NCBI GenBank assembly: GCA_009929735.1
Contig: RZZU01000013.1
Coordinates: 1 to 64,000 of the forward strand
Source: Clostridia bacterium
GTDB taxonomy: Bacteria; Bacillota; Clostridia; Lachnospirales; Anaerotignaceae
Reading direction: 5' to 3'
Length of the DNA stretch: 64,000 nucleotides
Shown here in pieces: positions 6,272 to 55,532 of this stretch. Numbering within the stretch: the stretch's first letter is position 1; every line of letters begins with the position of its first letter. The position numbers were made by a program, and so were the translations under genes. Under the pieces are notes generated by a model. It made no database searches. It saw only the letters and a list, made by a program, of their open reading frames with translations, and had not been told where the DNA came from.

Positions 6272-6311
6272 AAAAAGGCTTTCCGTTTCATAAAACGGAA
6301 AGCCTTTTTTC
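6272..6311. terminator. Bidirectional terminator after metQ
   Basis: AAAAAGGCTTTCCGTTT and its exact complement flank a short CAT loop, with A and T runs on each side. It sits 35 bases past the metQ stop and closes the met operon on the minus strand. Confidence 0.9.
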
Positions 6312-48368: not shown

Positions 48369-49754
48369 TTAATCCTCTTGGCATTGCGCCGCCTTCATCA
48401 TAATGGCGCATTCGATACGCTTTTTAAACAGCTTACAGCCGTATTCATAAACACCCCGAATACTGCCTGTGGCATGGTAAGAATTTGCGGCACAACCGCC
48501 CGAACAGTACATTTTCGCCCAGCAATCCCTGCATTCCTCTCTTGCGTAGGCATTGCAATGACGAAATTCCTCCTGAACAGCCGTATTTTTCACGCCGTCC
48601 CAAATATCCCCTAAGCTATACTTTGAATCCCCAACAAACTGATGACAGGGGTATAATTCTCCCCAAGGGGTTACCGCCATATACTCCGTTCCCGAGCCAC
48701 AGCCCGAAATTCTTTTATAAACACAGGGGCCGTTTTCCAAATCCAAAATATAATGATAGAATTCAAAACCATTCCCTGCTTTTTTGCGTCGTACCATTTC
48801 CTTTGCAAGGATTTCATACTGCTCAAACAGCTTTGGCAAATCCTCCTCTGTCAATGCATATGGGTCCGAAGGGTCGCAAACAACAGGCTCCATGCTCAAT
48901 TCTGTAAAGCCCATATCCGCCATATGGAACAGATCATTTGTAAAATCTACATTGTTATGGGTAAAGGTACCACGCATATAGTAGTCCTTTCCCCCTCTTT
49001 TTTCCACAAGCTTCTTGAATTTAGGCAAAATAATATCGTAACTGCCTTCTCCCGAAATAGTTTTGCGCAAATGGTCATGGATTTCTTTTCTGCCATCCAA
49101 CGACAACACCACATTATGCATTTCCTTATTCGCAAAATCAATCACATCATCATCAATGAGCATTCCATTTGTTGTTAAGGTAAAACGGAATTTTTTATTG
49201 CAAATGGGCTCTTGCTCTCTTGCATACACAACCAGCTTTTTCACAACATCCCAAACCATCAAAGGCTCGCCGCCAAAAAAATCCACCTCCAGATTCACTC
49301 TGTTCCCGGAATGGGCAATCAAAAAGTCCAATGCCTGCTTGCCAACCTCAAAGGACATCAACGCACGCTCCCCTTGATATTTTCCTTGGCTTGCAAAGCA
49401 ATAACTGCAATTTAAGTTACAGGTATGGGCAACATGAAGGCAAAGTGCTTTTATCACCTTGCTGTTGTTTTTAAACTCTACGGCAAGACCCTCGTATTCG
49501 TCCTTCGTAAACAGCTTCCCAAGCATAACCAAGGCTTGTATGTCCTCAAGACACAGACAAATTTCTTCCTCTGTCACATCAGGTCTGTCTGCAAACCTCG
49601 CCAATATTTCCCTGACAATCTCAGGTTTTTCCTTCGTTTCATACATTTGGATAATATCATACGCAACCTCGTCCACCACATGGACAGAGCCGCTGCAAGT
49701 ATCCAGTACTATGTTATATCCGTTTAATTTATACTGATGTACCAACCTATTCAA
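48369..49754 (-). CDS. scfB: SCIFF peptide radical-SAM maturase
   Basis: This 461-residue radical-SAM/SPASM protein makes thioether cross-links in the SCIFF peptide. An N-terminal peptide-recognition region (about 1-95) is followed by TCNLNCSYC with cysteines 112, 116 and 119 for the SAM cluster, and by a C-terminal SPASM domain with many cysteines (CGSG, YPCHQF, CRDCWAKMYCSGGC, GCKLF) for two auxiliary clusters. Its substrate gene lies about 100 bases upstream. Length and gene order match the pair found across Clostridia. Confidence 0.94.
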   Translation of the reverse strand: MNRLVHQYKLNGYNIVLDTCSGSVHVVDEVAYDIIQMYETKEKPEIVREILARFADRPDVTEEEICLCLEDIQALVMLGKLFTKDEYEGLAVEFKNNSKVIKALCLHVAHTCNLNCSYCFASQGKYQGERALMSFEVGKQALDFLIAHSGNRVNLEVDFFGGEPLMVWDVVKKLVVYAREQEPICNKKFRFTLTTNGMLIDDDVIDFANKEMHNVVLSLDGRKEIHDHLRKTISGEGSYDIILPKFKKLVEKRGGKDYYMRGTFTHNNVDFTNDLFHMADMGFTELSMEPVVCDPSDPYALTEEDLPKLFEQYEILAKEMVRRKKAGNGFEFYHYILDLENGPCVYKRISGCGSGTEYMAVTPWGELYPCHQFVGDSKYSLGDIWDGVKNTAVQEEFRHCNAYAREECRDCWAKMYCSGGCAANSYHATGSIRGVYEYGCKLFKKRIECAIMMKAAQCQED

Positions 49755-49856: not shown

Positions 49857-50003
49857 TTACTTCTGTTTGTTCTCGCAGGGCTGGTTTGCAACGCCACAGG
49901 AGGTTTTGCAAGCAGACTGGCAAGATGTCTGGCATTCGCCACAGCCGCCAAAAGCTACGCTCTTTTTCAGGTCACGTGTTTTAATTGTTTTAATTCTCTC
50001 CAC
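49857..50003 (-). CDS. scfA: SCIFF ranthipeptide precursor (six cysteines in forty-five)
   Basis: This gene codes for a 48-residue peptide. The core GGCGECQTSCQSACKTSCGV plus a later NQPCEN contains six cysteines at 21, 24, 28, 32, 36 and 43, matching the SCIFF family almost exactly, after a basic leader (ERIKTIKTRDLKKSVAF). The start is GTG at 50003: GGAG lies 8 bases upstream and an in-frame stop six codons upstream rules out a longer form. Gene finders often miss it because of the size and start codon. ScfB converts Cys residues to thioether links; the role of the product is not settled, with quorum-type signalling proposed. Confidence 0.94.
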   Translation of the reverse strand: MERIKTIKTRDLKKSVAFGGCGECQTSCQSACKTSCGVANQPCENKQK

Positions 50004-50099
50004 GGTTTCATCTCCATTCTAAATAGGAAAATTCTATGCGTTTTCTTATGCCGGCAAGAGAAAAACTCTTCCGCTGAAAATCGCATGATACACTGAAAA

Positions 50100-50128
50100 A
50101 GTATATATCAACACACCTAAAATGTCAA
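50100..50128 (-). promoter_or_regulatory. Sigma-A promoter of the SCIFF operon
   Basis: On the minus strand a perfect TTGACA (50128-50123) and TATACT (50105-50100) are 17 bases apart, leaving a leader of about 90 bases before scfA. Confidence 0.8.
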
Positions 50129-50336
50129 GGCGTATCCTTAAGAATGCAAGGTTTTCACCCTTTATAAAGAAGCGGCTTTCATGATGCTATTTGTAAAAAG
50201 GAATGCGCCAAAACCCCCATTTTTTTGTATTTTTCGATATGCTTCCTGTGATAAAAGAGCTTCTTTTCGTTTTGCGAATATTTCTTTGGTTTCATGTCAA
50301 TTTTATAAGAAGGTGCAGGGGTTTTTTCCTCACGAA
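50129..50336. other. Gene-free stretch between scfA and the GntR gene
   Basis: About 200 AT-rich bases without a supported gene or hairpin. Confidence 0.5.
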
Positions 50337-50452
50337 TTGAACTAGACTTTCCATGTAAACTATGATAGAATTCATCTTGGTTATATGGGAAATAGGAAAT
50401 AAAATAAACTCAATGATCGTGTTCAGCGTCCCTAGTCTTTCGCTGAATTTTT
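50337..50452 (+). promoter_or_regulatory. Promoter and early terminator upstream of the GntR gene
   Basis: TTGAAC (50337-50342) and TATGAT (50361-50366) are 18 bases apart. About 55 bases on, TTCAGCG (50422) and CGCTGAA (50441) form a hairpin followed by TTTTTC. The arrangement could give an attenuated leader or an 80-base small RNA ahead of the regulator gene. Confidence 0.45.
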
Positions 50453-50534
50453 CAGTTTATGCAGGCAAGCATCCCATTGAAATGGAAGTATATTGGAGCA
50501 ATCAACGAAAACTTAAAACGAAATGGTGTTCATT

Positions 50535-51173
50535 ATGAAAGAAAAAATCAGTCCTCCCGTCTATTCGCAGATAGCCCTTGATATAGCACTGCGGATTTCA
50601 AGAGAAGAGCTTAAGGAAAATACAAAAATTTATGGACGTTCTGTCATGTCGTCGGAGTATGGTGTATCTCCCGAAACAATTCGCAGAGCGTTAAAATTAC
50701 TGGAAGATATGCAAATTGTGGAGGTGCGCCGAAACAGCGGCGTAGTTGTTCTTTCTGTTGAAAAGGCGCAGGAGTATGCACAGCGTTTCGGTGAGCAAAA
50801 TGATACACGCCGTATTGAGCTTAATTTGAAAAAGCTTTTAGCACAACAGCTCAGTCTAAACGAGCAAATTGGTGAAATGGTATCTCATTTGGTACGCACC
50901 AATGATAAGTTTTCCAAAAGCAATCCCTTTCAAAATTATGAAATCGACATTCCTGCTGACTCCCCCCTGCTGGGTAAAAGCTTAATGGAGCTTATGTTCT
51001 GGCATAAAACTGGTGCTACCATCATTGCCATTCGCAGGAAGGATAAGTTGATTTTGTCACCTGGGCCCTATGCTGTTTTATTGGAAGATGACACACTGAT
51101 TTTTGTCGGCGATATATCAACCATAGAAACAGTCAGCAACTATATTACACAACCACAACCAGGCGTGGAATAG
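50535..51173 (+). CDS. GntR-family regulator with C-terminal TrkA_C domain
   Basis: This 212-residue protein has an N-terminal GntR winged helix (YSQIALDIALRISREELKENTKI, SSEYGVSPETIRRALKLLEDMQIV), a coiled-coil-like middle (RIELNLKKLLAQQLSLNEQIGEM) and a C-terminal RCK_C/TrkA_C ligand-binding fold (IPADSPLLGKSLMELMFWHKTGATIIAIRR). The same type, often found next to Opu-family transporters, may sense a cytoplasmic nucleotide or ion. It precedes the opu operon and probably binds the inverted repeat there. The start is uncertain between 50523 and 50535. Confidence 0.85.
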   Translation: MKEKISPPVYSQIALDIALRISREELKENTKIYGRSVMSSEYGVSPETIRRALKLLEDMQIVEVRRNSGVVVLSVEKAQEYAQRFGEQNDTRRIELNLKKLLAQQLSLNEQIGEMVSHLVRTNDKFSKSNPFQNYEIDIPADSPLLGKSLMELMFWHKTGATIIAIRRKDKLILSPGPYAVLLEDDTLIFVGDISTIETVSNYITQPQPGVE

Positions 51174-51208
51174 CTTATTCCTCCCTATTTGTGTCTACAA
51201 TTCGACTC

Positions 51209-51241
51209 CACCTTGATTAAAAAAGGCGGAGCTTTTTTTAT
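51209..51241 (+). terminator. Terminator of the GntR gene
   Basis: CTCCACCTT and AAGGCGGAG pair with one mismatch and are followed by CTTTTTTT. Confidence 0.8.
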
Positions 51242-51258
51242 GCAAAAATAAGGCTTCC

Positions 51259-51304
51259 TTGACAACTGCCAACTTAGTCTGTATAATGTAAGTTGTCAGT
51301 TGTC
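51259..51304 (+). promoter_or_regulatory. opu promoter inside a long inverted-repeat operator
   Basis: TTGACA (51259-51264) and TATAAT (51282-51287) match the consensus with a 17-base spacer. Two 16-base arms flank the -10: GACAACTGCCAACTTA (51261-51276) and TAAGTTGTCAGTTGTC (51289-51304), complementary at 15 of 16 positions. Each arm holds two copies of a CAACT-type half site. A repressor bound here would cover the whole promoter. Confidence 0.85.
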
Positions 51305-51329
51305 GAAAAAAGAAAGGAGCTTATATCAA

Positions 51330-52457
51330 ATGATTCAATTTCGCAATGTAAATAAAAGTTACGGAAAGAAAACCATTTTGGATAATCTTACTCTGGATAT
51401 AAAAGCAGGTGAATTTGTCATTCTCATCGGGCCAAGCGGTTGTGGAAAAACCACTACGTTAAAAACCATCAACCGTTTGATTGAACCCGATTCCGGCGAA
51501 ATTTTTATTGATGGTAAAGATATTACTAAGATGGACCCCGTGAAGCTGCGCCGTACAATCGGCTATGTCATTCAGCAGATTGGGCTATTTCCAAATATGA
51601 CAGTGGAGCAAAACATTGCCCTTGTGCCAAAACTGCTTAAGTATACAAATGAGGAAATCGACGAAATCGTACACCGTTTGTTGGACTTAGTCAATATGCC
51701 CTATGAAGAAAATGCAAAAAAATATCCCTCGGAGCTTTCCGGTGGACAGCAACAGCGTATTGGCGTATTACGTGCCCTTGCGGCATCCCCTCCTATTGTA
51801 CTGATGGACGAGCCTTTTGGTGCGCTCGATCCGCTTACAAGAGATACACTTCAAGAAGAAATCAAGAAAATTCAGAAAAAGCTTGGCAAAACTATTGTTT
51901 TTGTTACCCATGATATGGACGAGGCCTTACGCCTTGCGGATACCATTGTTTTCATGAACGAGGGCAAGGTATTGCAGATGGCATCTCCCGAGGAAATGCT
52001 GCAAAATCCTGCTGATCCCATCATCAAAAGCTTCCTAGGCAAGCATATGAATAACGGAAACAACGCCGCCAATATGGTGGCATCTGATTTTATGCGAGCA
52101 AAGGTGCTGACGGTACCAAAAACAAAGAAAACGCTGGAATGTATTGCGCTGATGAGCCGACGGGATGTATCCTCCCTGATTGTTGTGGAGGATGACGATA
52201 CCTATTTGGGGACAGTTTCCGTTGATAAAATTAAGGCGGAGGGAAAGGCGGGCAAGGAAATATCCGAGCTTGTCACCTTGGAATCTATGACGGTAAACCG
52301 CAATTCCAACGCACAGGAGGCATTTGAGCTACTGATTGCTTCTCCTACGGGATATGTCTTGGTGCTCAATGATGATAATACCGTCGCAGGTCTTATTACA
52401 AAAACCAGCATGGCAAAAGCAATGGGCGAAGCGCTATGGGGGGAGATGACGCAATGA
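51330..52457 (+). CDS. opuCA: Osmoprotectant ABC transporter ATPase with CBS domains
   Basis: This 375-residue ATPase has the ProV/OpuCA layout: Walker [10 protein letters not shown], signature LSGGQQQRIG, Walker B VLMDEPFGALD, then two CBS domains (about 250-370) that sense ionic strength or bind nucleotides. AAAGGAG lies before the ATG at 51330. It overlaps the next permease gene by four bases. Substrate is expected to be glycine betaine, carnitine or choline. Confidence 0.92.
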   Translation: MIQFRNVNKSYGKKTILDNLTLDIKAGEFVILIGPSGCGKTTTLKTINRLIEPDSGEIFIDGKDITKMDPVKLRRTIGYVIQQIGLFPNMTVEQNIALVPKLLKYTNEEIDEIVHRLLDLVNMPYEENAKKYPSELSGGQQQRIGVLRALAASPPIVLMDEPFGALDPLTRDTLQEEIKKIQKKLGKTIVFVTHDMDEALRLADTIVFMNEGKVLQMASPEEMLQNPADPIIKSFLGKHMNNGNNAANMVASDFMRAKVLTVPKTKKTLECIALMSRRDVSSLIVVEDDDTYLGTVSVDKIKAEGKAGKEISELVTLESMTVNRNSNAQEAFELLIASPTGYVLVLNDDNTVAGLITKTSMAKAMGEALWGEMTQ

Positions 52458-53095
52458 GTTATTCTGATTTTCTATCAAAATATTCTGGAGAAATCATCAA
52501 AGCCTTCTTTACGCATATTGAGCTTGTGCTTCTCTCTGTCGGCATCGGTGTTGTGATTGCCGTGCCTCTTGGAATTATGCTGACACGCCATCAGGCGGCG
52601 GCGAAATATGTTCTGTCGATTGTCGGTGTCATTCAGACAATTCCAGGGCTTGTACTTTTAGGCGTCATGCTGATTTTTTTTGGGATTGGTAAGCCGCCTG
52701 CCATTGCGGCACTATCTCTGTATGCTGTTTTACCAATTCTGCGTAATACCTTTACCGGCATTATGGAGGTGGACAGTCATTACATCGAAGCCGCAAAAGG
52801 CATAGGCATGAACGGAAAGCAAATTTTATTTCAAGTTGAACTGCCTTTGGCTATGCCTACAATCATCGGGGGCTTACGTCTGTCTACGGTTTACATCATC
52901 AGTTGGGCAACGCTTGCCGGAATGATTGGTGCAGGCGGTCTTGGCGATATGATTTGGACAGGGCTTTCCACCTATGAAACAAAATTTATTCTTGCGGGGG
53001 CAATTCCCGCTGCAATTTTGGCTCTTGTTGCGAATACACTGATTGGGTTTATCCAGCGTGCGCTTACACCAAGAGGCATAAGACTAGGGAGGTGA
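52454..53095 (+). CDS. opuCB: Osmoprotectant ABC transporter permease
   Basis: This 213-residue permease has five to six membrane segments and the EAA-like loop HYIEAAKGIGMNGKQILFQVELPLAMP. GGGGGAG precedes the ATG, which overlaps the opuCA stop as ATGA. The TWATLAGMIGAGGLGDMI stretch is typical of the OpuCB/ProW group. Confidence 0.9.
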   Translation: MSYSDFLSKYSGEIIKAFFTHIELVLLSVGIGVVIAVPLGIMLTRHQAAAKYVLSIVGVIQTIPGLVLLGVMLIFFGIGKPPAIAALSLYAVLPILRNTFTGIMEVDSHYIEAAKGIGMNGKQILFQVELPLAMPTIIGGLRLSTVYIISWATLAGMIGAGGLGDMIWTGLSTYETKFILAGAIPAAILALVANTLIGFIQRALTPRGIRLGR

Positions 53096-53099
53096 AAAA

Positions 53100-53699
53100 A
53101 TGGGTGATTTATTTCCCCTGATTGTGGAACATATCCTGCTTGTTTTGATTGCCATTGCAATTGCATCGGCTTTGGGCGTACTGCTTGGAATGATTTCCTA
53201 TTGGGTACCCTATCTGGATAAAATAATTCTCTGGATTGTGGATTCTCTGCAAACCATTCCTTCCTTGGCACTTCTCGCCATTTTGATGATATTTTTCGGT
53301 CTGGGCAATACCACGCTGATTGTTGGTCTGGTATTGTATTCCCTCCTGCCTATTGTGCGTAACACCTATATTGGGCTGACAGGCGTATCACCGCATTTGA
53401 AGGATGCGGCAAGGGGTATGGGGATGTCCAGGTTACAGCGAATGCTCAAGGTAGAGCTTCCGCTTTCATTTCCGCTGATTTTTTCGGGCATCAAAATTGC
53501 AACCGTCACTGCATTGTCTATTGCAGTCATGGGCGTTTTGATTGGCTCGGGCGGACTTGGCTATCCAATTTTTAGAGGCATTCAAACAATGAATTTTCAT
53601 GCAATTATGACTGGGACAATTCCCGTTGTAATTATGGCACTGGTTTTCGACTTTTTTATGTCAAAAATGGAACAAAAGCTCGTTAAGCGGGCAAAATAA
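53100..53699 (+). CDS. opuCD: Osmoprotectant ABC transporter permease
   Basis: This 199-residue permease is a paralogue of the previous one, with LKDAARGMGMSRLQRMLKVELPLSFP as the coupling loop. AGGGAGG lies 5 bases before the ATG. Gene order is ATPase-permease-permease-binding protein, unlike the A-B-C-D order of Bacillus opuC. Confidence 0.9.
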   Translation: MGDLFPLIVEHILLVLIAIAIASALGVLLGMISYWVPYLDKIILWIVDSLQTIPSLALLAILMIFFGLGNTTLIVGLVLYSLLPIVRNTYIGLTGVSPHLKDAARGMGMSRLQRMLKVELPLSFPLIFSGIKIATVTALSIAVMGVLIGSGGLGYPIFRGIQTMNFHAIMTGTIPVVIMALVFDFFMSKMEQKLVKRAK

Positions 53700-53720
53700 A
53701 ATCCAAAGGAGGATGAAAAA

Positions 53721-54614
53721 ATGAAAAAAAAATTACTTTCCCTTACGATTGGTGCGACAGCACTCTTGTCCATGGCAATGACAGGCTGTGGCAGTAAGGA
53801 CACCATTGTAGTCGGCTCGAAGGACTTCAGCGAGAATATTATTCTCGGAGAAATTCTTTCACAGCTGATTGAAAACAAAACCGATTTGCAGGTGGAACGC
53901 AAGCTCAATATGGGCGGAACCTTTATTAATTTTGAGGCACTCAAAAAGGGCGATATTGACCTTTATACTGAGTATACTGGTACAGGCTTAACTGCACAGT
54001 TAAAAATGGGCGTTTTAAGCGACCCTGATGAAACATATAAAATTGTTTCCGAGGAATTTGATAAGCAATTTGACATTAAGTGGTTGGAGCCTATGGGATT
54101 TAACAATACCTATGCAATTGCGGTTACACGAGAAGCCGCCGAAGAATACGGGTTGGAAACCTGCTCAGATCTGATCGGTGTATCCCAAAACCTTGTATAT
54201 GGGGGTGAAAACGAATTTTTCAACCGTGAGGATGGGTTTGAAGGCTTCTGCAAGTTATACGGCATTTCCTTCAAGGGTGATCCGAAAATGATGAATGTAT
54301 CACTGAAATATCAGGCAATTGGCAATGGTGATATGGATGTCACCGATGCGTTTGCCACTGATGCGGAAATCAAGAAGTATGATTTGCAGGTATTAGAGGA
54401 TGATTTGAACTTCTTCCCACCCTATTATGCGGCTCCCATCGTTCGTAACGAAACCTTGAAAGCACATCCTGAGCTGGAAGAGGTGCTGAATATGCTCGCA
54501 GGACAAATTTCTGACGAGGAAATGACAGAATTGAATTATCAGGTAAATGTGGAGCAGAAAAAAGTAGATGCGGTTGCAACAGAATTCCTGAAAAGCAAAA
54601 GCCTATTGGATTAA
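53721..54614 (+). CDS. opuCC: Osmoprotectant-binding lipoprotein
   Basis: This 297-residue lipoprotein (lipobox MAMTGC) has the OpuAC/OpuCC-type binding fold: IVVGSKDFSENIILGEILSQLIE at the start, GGTFINFEALKKGDIDLYTEYTGTGL, and FPPYYAAPIVRNETLKAHPELEEVLN. It captures the quaternary amine or a similar compound for OpuCA-B-D. AAAGGAGG precedes the ATG. It ends the operon. Confidence 0.9.
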   Translation: MKKKLLSLTIGATALLSMAMTGCGSKDTIVVGSKDFSENIILGEILSQLIENKTDLQVERKLNMGGTFINFEALKKGDIDLYTEYTGTGLTAQLKMGVLSDPDETYKIVSEEFDKQFDIKWLEPMGFNNTYAIAVTREAAEEYGLETCSDLIGVSQNLVYGGENEFFNREDGFEGFCKLYGISFKGDPKMMNVSLKYQAIGNGDMDVTDAFATDAEIKKYDLQVLEDDLNFFPPYYAAPIVRNETLKAHPELEEVLNMLAGQISDEEMTELNYQVNVEQKKVDAVATEFLKSKSLLD

Positions 54615-54676
54615 AAATTCGTTCCTACCTATTTTTTGCAACACATACAAATTTCATTGCATATAACCGCACAAAC

Positions 54677-54726
54677 GCAAATCGTCCGTATTGTAAAGAA
54701 TTCCTTTGCAATACGGACGATTTTTT
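54677..54726. terminator. Terminator of the opu operon
   Basis: AAATCGTCCGTATTG and CAATACGGACGATTT pair around a 16-base loop and are followed by TTTTGTTTT. It also fits the converging ZIP gene. Confidence 0.9.
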
Positions 54727-54755
54727 GTTTTCAAATATTTTTATGTATTTCGCCA

Positions 54756-55532
54756 TTACCCAAGGGTTACATCAAGCACCATCATCAGTGCAAAGCCAAC
54801 TGCGGCACCGATTGTGCCAATATTGGAATGCTCCCCGGCTTGGCACTCGGGAATCAATTCCTCAATGACCACATAAATCATTGCCCCTGCGGCAAAGGCA
54901 AGAAAATAAGGTAAAATCGGCACCACCTGTTTCGCCAGCAAAATGGTGATGACTGCGCCGATGGGCTCCACAACGCCCGAGGCCACCCCGTATAAAAAAG
55001 CTTTTTTCTTGCTCTGCCCTTCATTGCACAAGGGCATGGAAATAATGGCGCCCTCAGGAAAATTCTGTAATGCAATGCCCAACGCCAGTGCAAAGGCAGA
55101 CATCATGGTTATACTGCCGTTTCCAAGCATTGCCCCTGCAAAGGTCACACCCACCGCCATACCTTCAGGAAAATTATGCAGCGTAACCGCCAGCACAAGC
55201 ATGGTCGTTTTTGACAATCTGCTTGGCATTCCCTCAGGCTTTTCGCTGCTCATATGCAAATGTGGAATCAGACTATCCAAAAGCAGTAAAAAACCAACCC
55301 CCAGCAAAAACCCCAGCAACGCAGGCAGCCATGTAATGCCGCCTTGCGCCTCTGACAAATCAAGAGCCGGAATCAACAGTGACCATACCGATGCCGCAAT
55401 CATCACCCCTGCGGCAAACCCCAAAAGCAGTTTTTTCAATTGAACATTCATTTCCTCTTTCATCAAAAAAACCATTGCGGAACCCAACGTCGTTCCGAGA
55501 AACGGAATCAATAAAATCATACTTTCTTGCAT
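54756..55532 (-). CDS. ZIP family divalent metal transporter
   Basis: This 258-residue membrane protein has eight hydrophobic segments and the paired ZIP metal-site motifs HNFPEGMAVG and QNFPEGAIIS, plus EELIPE. It imports zinc or a related metal. AAGGAGAAGCATAT precedes the ATG. It lies 30 bases after the methyltransferase gene and may be part of the TetR operon. Confidence 0.9.
   Translation of the reverse strand: MQESMILLIPFLGTTLGSAMVFLMKEEMNVQLKKLLLGFAAGVMIAASVWSLLIPALDLSEAQGGITWLPALLGFLLGVGFLLLLDSLIPHLHMSSEKPEGMPSRLSKTTMLVLAVTLHNFPEGMAVGVTFAGAMLGNGSITMMSAFALALGIALQNFPEGAIISMPLCNEGQSKKKAFLYGVASGVVEPIGAVITILLAKQVVPILPYFLAFAAGAMIYVVIEELIPECQAGEHSNIGTIGAAVGFALMMVLDVTLG

Follow-up and report, generated by a model that had tools for sequence, protein, structure and literature searches.

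A predicted BusR operator on an opu promoter in Clostridia and the variable spacing of its half sites

What acts on a promoter whose core is covered by a near-perfect inverted repeat, next to a gene for a GntR-type regulator? The question is raised by the opu (osmolyte uptake) promoter in a 64,000-nt stretch of a Clostridia bacterium of the Anaerotignaceae (GenBank GCA_009929735.1, contig RZZU01000013.1, positions 1 to 64,000; here called the window). An earlier note, made from the letters alone, had proposed a repressor operator, with the adjacent GntR-TrkA_C protein as the candidate. We consider it very probable that the element is the operator of this protein, a homologue of BusR, for the opu operon. 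BusR is a repressor of betaine uptake that depends on cyclic di-AMP (c-di-AMP) (PMC8517857, PMC6108528; published statements here are taken from excerpts of the papers cited). The system is thus already known; what goes beyond the earlier note is that identification and a spacing of the half sites that departs from the published rule.

The two arms of the repeat pair at 15 of 16 positions, with one mismatch and a 12-base loop, just as had been noticed (coordinates of all features are in Table 1). The promoter has a perfect sigma-70-type consensus, 12/12 over both boxes, with a 17-nt spacer. Its −10 box is enclosed by the arms, as the earlier note had it; the −35 box, placed there inside the left arm, only overlaps that arm and begins 2 bases ahead of it. 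Of 60 dinucleotide-shuffled versions of the window, 2 contained repeats paired at 15/16 or better with a loop of up to 20 (mean 0.03), compared with four places in the real sequence (near 6273, 20920, 51261, and 54683). The inverted repeat at 51261 is real and well above chance; given the four places, repeats of this quality are no rarity in this DNA. The other three are likewise near-perfect 16-base repeats with short loops and are possibly terminators.

By its sequence, the neighboring protein is a full-length BusR homologue. It matches BusR of Streptococcus mutans (PDB 7wjg, 5.6e-37) and of S. agalactiae (7b5t, 1e-35) over nearly the full length, with a gap-free linker in both printed alignments, and has the N-terminal GntR winged helix-turn-helix (wHTH) and the C-terminal RCK_C/TrkA_C domain of the BusR subfamily. 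An AlphaFold2 model (pLDDT 81, pTM 0.41) consists of the wHTH, a single helix at residues 75 to 125, which would be the long coiled-coil linker that serves BusR as a ruler, and an RCK_C fold; in a fold search of the PDB, its best 13 matches were BusR chains, and the modeled RCK_C domain fits c-di-AMP-bound 7b5u closely. Most switch residues, compared at the positions given in PMC8517857, are retained. The autoinhibition patch (published Y13, W159, P181, and F182 or Y) is kept as Y10, W156, and P178, all identical, and Y179, which is F in S. agalactiae and similar. Identities in the c-di-AMP pocket are H157, A161, T162, I163, and P178 (published H160, A164, T165, I166, and P181), and at DNA-contact positions R35, R50, and G69 are identical and R51 is a conservative change. 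The genome has one gene for a c-di-AMP synthase (a diadenylate cyclase, DAC domain above the cut-off), so that the signal is predicted to be made in this organism. Among the matches listed, the nearest named relatives of the regulator come from Anaerotignum, the A. neopropionicum BusR being 87% identical, and from a metagenome-assembled genome labeled Tyzzerella.

How far is the site itself a BusR operator? We collected busR loci from 56 of 392 genomes of the order, from 90 of 398 genomes of the phylum (using 80 of 92 places outside the own genome; the rest consisted of similar or second copies and of fragments), and from the best 80 of 456 named loci; removal of near copies (95% identity) reduced 216 loci to 189. 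A scan for TGACAACTT facing its own reverse complement, at 15/18 or better, found 34, 59, and 6 sites with 22, 23, and 24 bases between the GAC and GTC triplets (N22, N23, and N24), compared with 3, 0, and 3 in the reversed sequence. At the remaining spacings the counts stayed close to background, apart from N30/31 (28 sites) and N37 to N39 (25 sites); by our reading, many N30/31 matches probably use the −35 TTGACA or an outer repeat as one half. At least one N22 to N24 site was present in 88 of the 189 loci, leaving 101 without one at this threshold. Where an Opu ATPase is encoded near busR (81 loci), 54 reached 15/18 at N22 to N24, 1 at N16 to N18, and none at N26 to N28. Since the consensus was derived from the genus under study, distant degenerate sites are under-counted. 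Base counts over the 99 sites give a half site AA(C/G)TGACAACTT, one 12-bp half site per arm. In the window, this places the half sites as GCC-N24-GTC, with C replacing A at the second base of the left GAC, and the site lies, as a BusR operator should, on the promoter of a betaine-type transporter, overlapping the −35 and −10 boxes.

Ten of the N37 to N39 matches belong to Oscillibacter-type loci (L140, L142, L150, L154, L155, L156, L164, L165, L167, and L177; L and G numbers are our handles for loci and genomes). Their left half is degenerate, resembling AACTG[A/C]CAT, and about 15 bp upstream of it stands another half-like sequence with ACA, which gives an N38 pairing.

Within the genus, the element is kept with its regulator. 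Of the 58 family genomes searched, 9 gave a BusR match (E 1e-20). A busR orthologue stands beside opu in six genomes of the genus, that of the window included, the other five proteins being 84 to 88% identical, and in all six the promoter and the element form a conserved island in a diverged intergenic region. This is the persistence in homologous operons on which the earlier note had staked its reading. The GAC-GTC spacing is 24 in the window, L047, and L048 and 23 in L044, L045, and L046. One genome, G020, carries the busR-opu locus twice on one contig (L044 and L099; G020 C1, 367613 and 521386), about 154 kb apart, with equal scores and the same printed flanks, a candidate for either a real duplication or an assembly artifact; later counts exclude the second copy. 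The suggested search for the motif elsewhere in the own genome came up empty: no further place matched both arms, matches to one arm, 3 mismatches being allowed, did not exceed the reversed control (18 versus 35 forward), and 10 places fitted a relaxed bipartite pattern versus 8 in the control, hence no second operator above control.

Across the order, the operator occurs together with BusR. A strict pattern, ACAACTTN{12,14}AAGTTGT, was present in 27 of 56 BusR-positive and 19 of 336 BusR-negative genomes (P = 1.7e-14, relatedness not corrected), compared with 10 of 56 and 40 of 336 for its reversed control (P = 0.28). Thirteen of the BusR-negative sites, from the 19 genomes, were seen as loci; 11 of these 13 lie within open reading frames (ORFs) of at least 100 aa and so probably arise by chance.

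Several observations weigh against the reading of this element as a BusR operator of tolerant spacing. Published sites follow the rule 5′-GAC-N22-GTC-3′, which the window site, with GCC and N24, departs from on both counts; N24 is the best site in 5 of 88 loci, in one of which (L074) it probably arose by chance, and of 198 half sites 12 have GCC. In S. agalactiae, BusR binding was abolished or much weakened when one GAC motif was lost (PMC8517857), and the left half here is GCC, which is also why the window's own site escapes the strict pattern. Among the 81 opu-adjacent loci, 27 score below 15, 18 of these below 14. In the protein, the published pocket positions I153, G154, N157, and V158 are L, M, M, and F, and the DNA contacts K36 and G70 are Y33 and N67; superposition of the whole model on BusR is loose (TM 0.34 to 0.41, rmsd 11 to 15), with the domains placed differently at a pTM of 0.41.

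By homology to the S. agalactiae and Lactococcus lactis proteins, we infer that BusR binding, c-di-AMP dependence, and repression apply here also. The earlier note had guessed at a cyclic dinucleotide linked to osmolyte uptake; c-di-AMP would be the expected signal (PMC8517857, PMC6108528). When c-di-AMP is high and there is no osmotic need, one c-di-AMP-bound BusR tetramer would hold both half sites, cover the −10 box, overlap the −35 box, and block RNA polymerase, so that osmolyte uptake stops. Under osmotic stress, c-di-AMP would fall, BusR would release the site, and opu would be transcribed. With half sites 24 bp apart between their triplets, the ruler of such a tetramer must tolerate about 22 to 24 bp.

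The earlier note saw two half sites in each arm and hence two repressor dimers, and the right arm, with GACAACT every 7 bp (GACAACTGACAACT on the minus strand), does invite a model of two dimers or two tetramers. The secondary spacing peaks at N30, N31, and N37 to N39 point the same way, as do two operator matches in eleven loci (ten without L074). We nevertheless judge this arrangement improbable: over the 99 sites, conservation is low at positions −4 to −10 outside the half site, the right arm's outer GACAACT is not common to the genus, the outer repeat on the left falls on the −35 box, and the paired operators are two whole sites 34 to 36 bp apart rather than nested arms (L111, L113, L095, L087, L093, L083, L088, L098, L166, and L199; they recall the pAB1/pAB2 pair of S. 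agalactiae). A single BusR tetramer holds both half sites in the published work (PMC8517857), and the claim of two dimers is not supported.

It is less probable still that another regulator binds the repeat, or that the repeat is part of the promoter only and BusR acts elsewhere. The left half does overlap promoter sequence, but the right half, downstream of the −10 box, is conserved in the genus all the same, and the site tracks BusR across genomes. In the Oscillibacter-type loci, a bipartite site precedes busR with a TATAAT-like box just past the right half and not inside, so the site does not depend on one promoter geometry. That an inverted repeat stands near a transcript start might also suggest an RNA hairpin (an attenuator or riboswitch-like leader), to which we give almost no weight: the start expected from the promoter, about 7 nt past the −10 box, falls in the right arm, so that the left arm would not be transcribed. 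An RNA element was rejected, as an Rfam scan of 50000 to 55000 found no family at threshold.

This brings us back to BusR and its ruler. The spacing GAC-N22-GTC was reported for all four known BusR sites, with the coiled coil as the ruler, and binding was lost when the spacing was changed by +5 or −10 bp (PMC8517857). Yet the Clostridia sites include three spacings. One N24 site, in L074, is probably a chance match because it lies inside its busR coding region, leaving five of six N24 sites credible. We placed one spacing label per locus (the best site) on a tree of 88 BusRs, in which 46 of 85 inner branches are starred. The labels required 18 changes, compared with a mean of 28.5 when shuffled, and are therefore clustered yet often changing; the starred branches alone force 13 changes for the N23 label. 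Spacing was accordingly rejected as a clade marker. Nor is it set by linker length, measured from S74 to E136 in window numbering: the linker has 63 residues in 66 of the 88 proteins, with N22 in 24, N23 in 37, and N24 in 5 of them, and since all three spacings share this length, the length differences that do exist (64 residues in 12, all N23; 62 in 8; 73 in L098; 43 in L192) do not decide the spacing.

Different spacings also occur side by side. Adjacent operators differ in L111 (22/23), L113 (22/24), and L095 (22/23). Among genomes with a single BusR at E 1e-20, G024 and G025 combine N24 at opu with N23 at ablB, and in G026 the spacing is N23 at ablB/busR but N22 before a gene for a ProV-like ATPase. 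That one protein tolerates several spacings is thus a simpler account than coevolution of coil and site. On balance, we favor the view, drawn from sequence comparison, that BusR would have no fixed 22-bp ruler: the Clostridia operator appears to be AA(C/G)TGACAACTT and its mirror image with GAC and GTC 22, 23 (the commonest), or 24 bp apart, one BusR may serve different spacings in a cell, and recognition may extend to the inner AACTT, a stretch believed to be contacted irrespective of its sequence. In the open-licence papers searched, taken without supplements, no BusR spacing except 22 is given in the text available; within the searches made, the spacing variation is new and the BusR system itself known.

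Which other genes might respond? Strict operator sites away from busR in BusR-positive genomes numbered 15, of which three lie inside ORFs and the other 12 were examined in context. Three precede ablB, for beta-lysine N-acetyltransferase (L311, L312, and L316; TIGR03827, 345 to 352 bits, cut-off 205). Others precede a ProV-like ATPase (L313 and L317), a binding-protein operon (L314 and L315, the latter with an amino-acid-type binding protein), a betaine-type binding protein (L319), and an APC-type permease (L320); for L318, L321, and L322, no link was evident. Operators before ablB, or before an operon ending ablA-ablB, were also present in L057, L085, L325, and L371. AblB above the cut-off was found in 28 of 392 genomes of the order, 25 of these 28 being BusR positive compared with 31 of the 364 others (P = 7e-21, relatedness not corrected); the own genome has none above the cut-off. 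An operator directly precedes the best ablB copy in 6 of the 28 (G020, G024, G025, G026, G057, and G114), and in G144, and by its coordinates likewise in G231, it precedes an operon ending ablA-ablB. The remaining 20 genomes, three of them BusR negative, had no N22 to N24 site before the best copy at 14/18 (15/18 beyond the nearest 500 bp for G163 and G063). In four of these 20 (G092, G156, G170, and G238), busR is directly followed by a second ablB and preceded by an N22 site of lower score (14/18).

In Dehalobacter, a tandem riboswitch for c-di-AMP and sodium stands before ablA (PMC9337991), so that a link between this signal and this osmolyte has a precedent by another route. No c-di-AMP riboswitch was found at threshold in the 20 stretches before ablA that lack the operator; the sole match there was a T-box leader upstream of ablA/ablB in a BusR-negative genome (L356:1905-2135). 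The excerpts of the literature searched as above describe no action of BusR on ablB, and the predicted AblB operators are new within those searches.

The operator is followed by a four-gene betaine-type ABC importer on the same strand as busR. Between busR and opu, a hairpin with a T run suggests that the two are transcribed separately; the terminator scan, with its loop limit of 8, did not list it. Farther upstream (48369 to 49754), the window encodes a radical-SAM-type protein with a Cys-rich C-terminus, and relatives encode, next to its homologue, a short Cys-rich peptide, GGCGECQTSCQSACKTSC; the pair is reminiscent of SCIFF peptides and their maturase.

Table 1. Features of the busR-opu region in the window, with two predicted operators at ablB in other loci
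Feature	Position	Strand	Basis or remark
Left arm of 16-bp inverted repeat	51261-51276	+	GACAACTGCCAACTTA, read from sequence
Right arm of 16-bp inverted repeat	51289-51304	-	GACAACTGACAACTTA on minus strand; given as TAAGTTGTCAGTTGTC in pairing with left arm
-35 box, opu promoter	51259-51264	+	TTGACA; promoter scan, 12/12 jointly with -10
-10 box, opu promoter	51282-51287	+	TATAAT; promoter scan; within repeat loop
Left BusR half site (predicted)	51264-51275	+	AACTGCCAACTT; base counts, 99 sites
Right BusR half site (predicted)	51290-51301	-	AACTGACAACTT on minus strand; base counts, 99 sites
busR homologue, GntR wHTH, coiled coil, TrkA_C/RCK_C, 212 aa	50535-51173	+	Pfam GntR 5.5e-9, TrkA_C 1.6e-17
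Probable intrinsic terminator between busR and opu	51206-51239	+	By eye; stem CTCCACC/GGCGGAG with imperfect pairing, 12-base loop, run of T
opu/proV-type ATPase with CBS domains	51330-52457	+	NCBIfam TIGR01186, 379 bits (cut-off 326.6); ATG at 51330 after AAAGGAG
Opu permease 1	52454-53095	+	BPD_transp_1
Opu permease 2	53100-53699	+	BPD_transp_1
Opu substrate-binding protein	53721-54614	+	OpuAC 9.1e-71
Predicted operator before ablB, L311	2999-3038		
Predicted operator before ablB, L312	1277-1316		

BusR has been described as a transcription factor with its two DNA contacts held at a set distance by the coiled coil. With a large natural set of operators at 22, 23, and 24 bp, how stiff that ruler is can be tested directly, and the half-site consensus can serve to search Clostridia for genes under c-di-AMP control. 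The operators away from busR suggest a wider osmolyte regulon.

Among known systems, BusR-busAB (OpuA) of S. agalactiae (PMC8517857, PMC5919688) has the same type of regulator, homologous over nearly its full length, and, as here, a bipartite inverted site over the −35 and −10 boxes of a betaine transporter operon. Its spacing is 22 with GAC on the left, whereas the window has 24 and GCC, and it has two operators (pAB1 and pAB2) where the window has one. In the Clostridia, strong conservation includes the inner AACTT adjoining GAC; the S. agalactiae paper, in the part available, describes the inner wHTH region as not very conserved. In L. lactis (PMC6108528, PMC10243994, PMC7051946), a betaine transporter operon, busAA-AB, is likewise under BusR, whose TrkA_C domain binds c-di-AMP, strengthening repression; the Opu system here has four genes (a separate ATPase, two permeases, and a binding protein), unlike busAA-AB. 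Further L. lactis targets (arsC, hom, and thrB) appear among published predictions, so that the idea of a wider regulon for BusR is in itself not new. On Enterococcus plasmids (NC_013317 and NZ_CP142821), busR is followed by opu with a bipartite site, AAAGTGAC-N22-GTCACTTT, directly upstream of opu, the same arrangement as in the window at a spacing of 22 rather than 24; the NZ_CP142821 site was found by the scan, and that of NC_013317 was read by eye, since it is without the inner AACTT.
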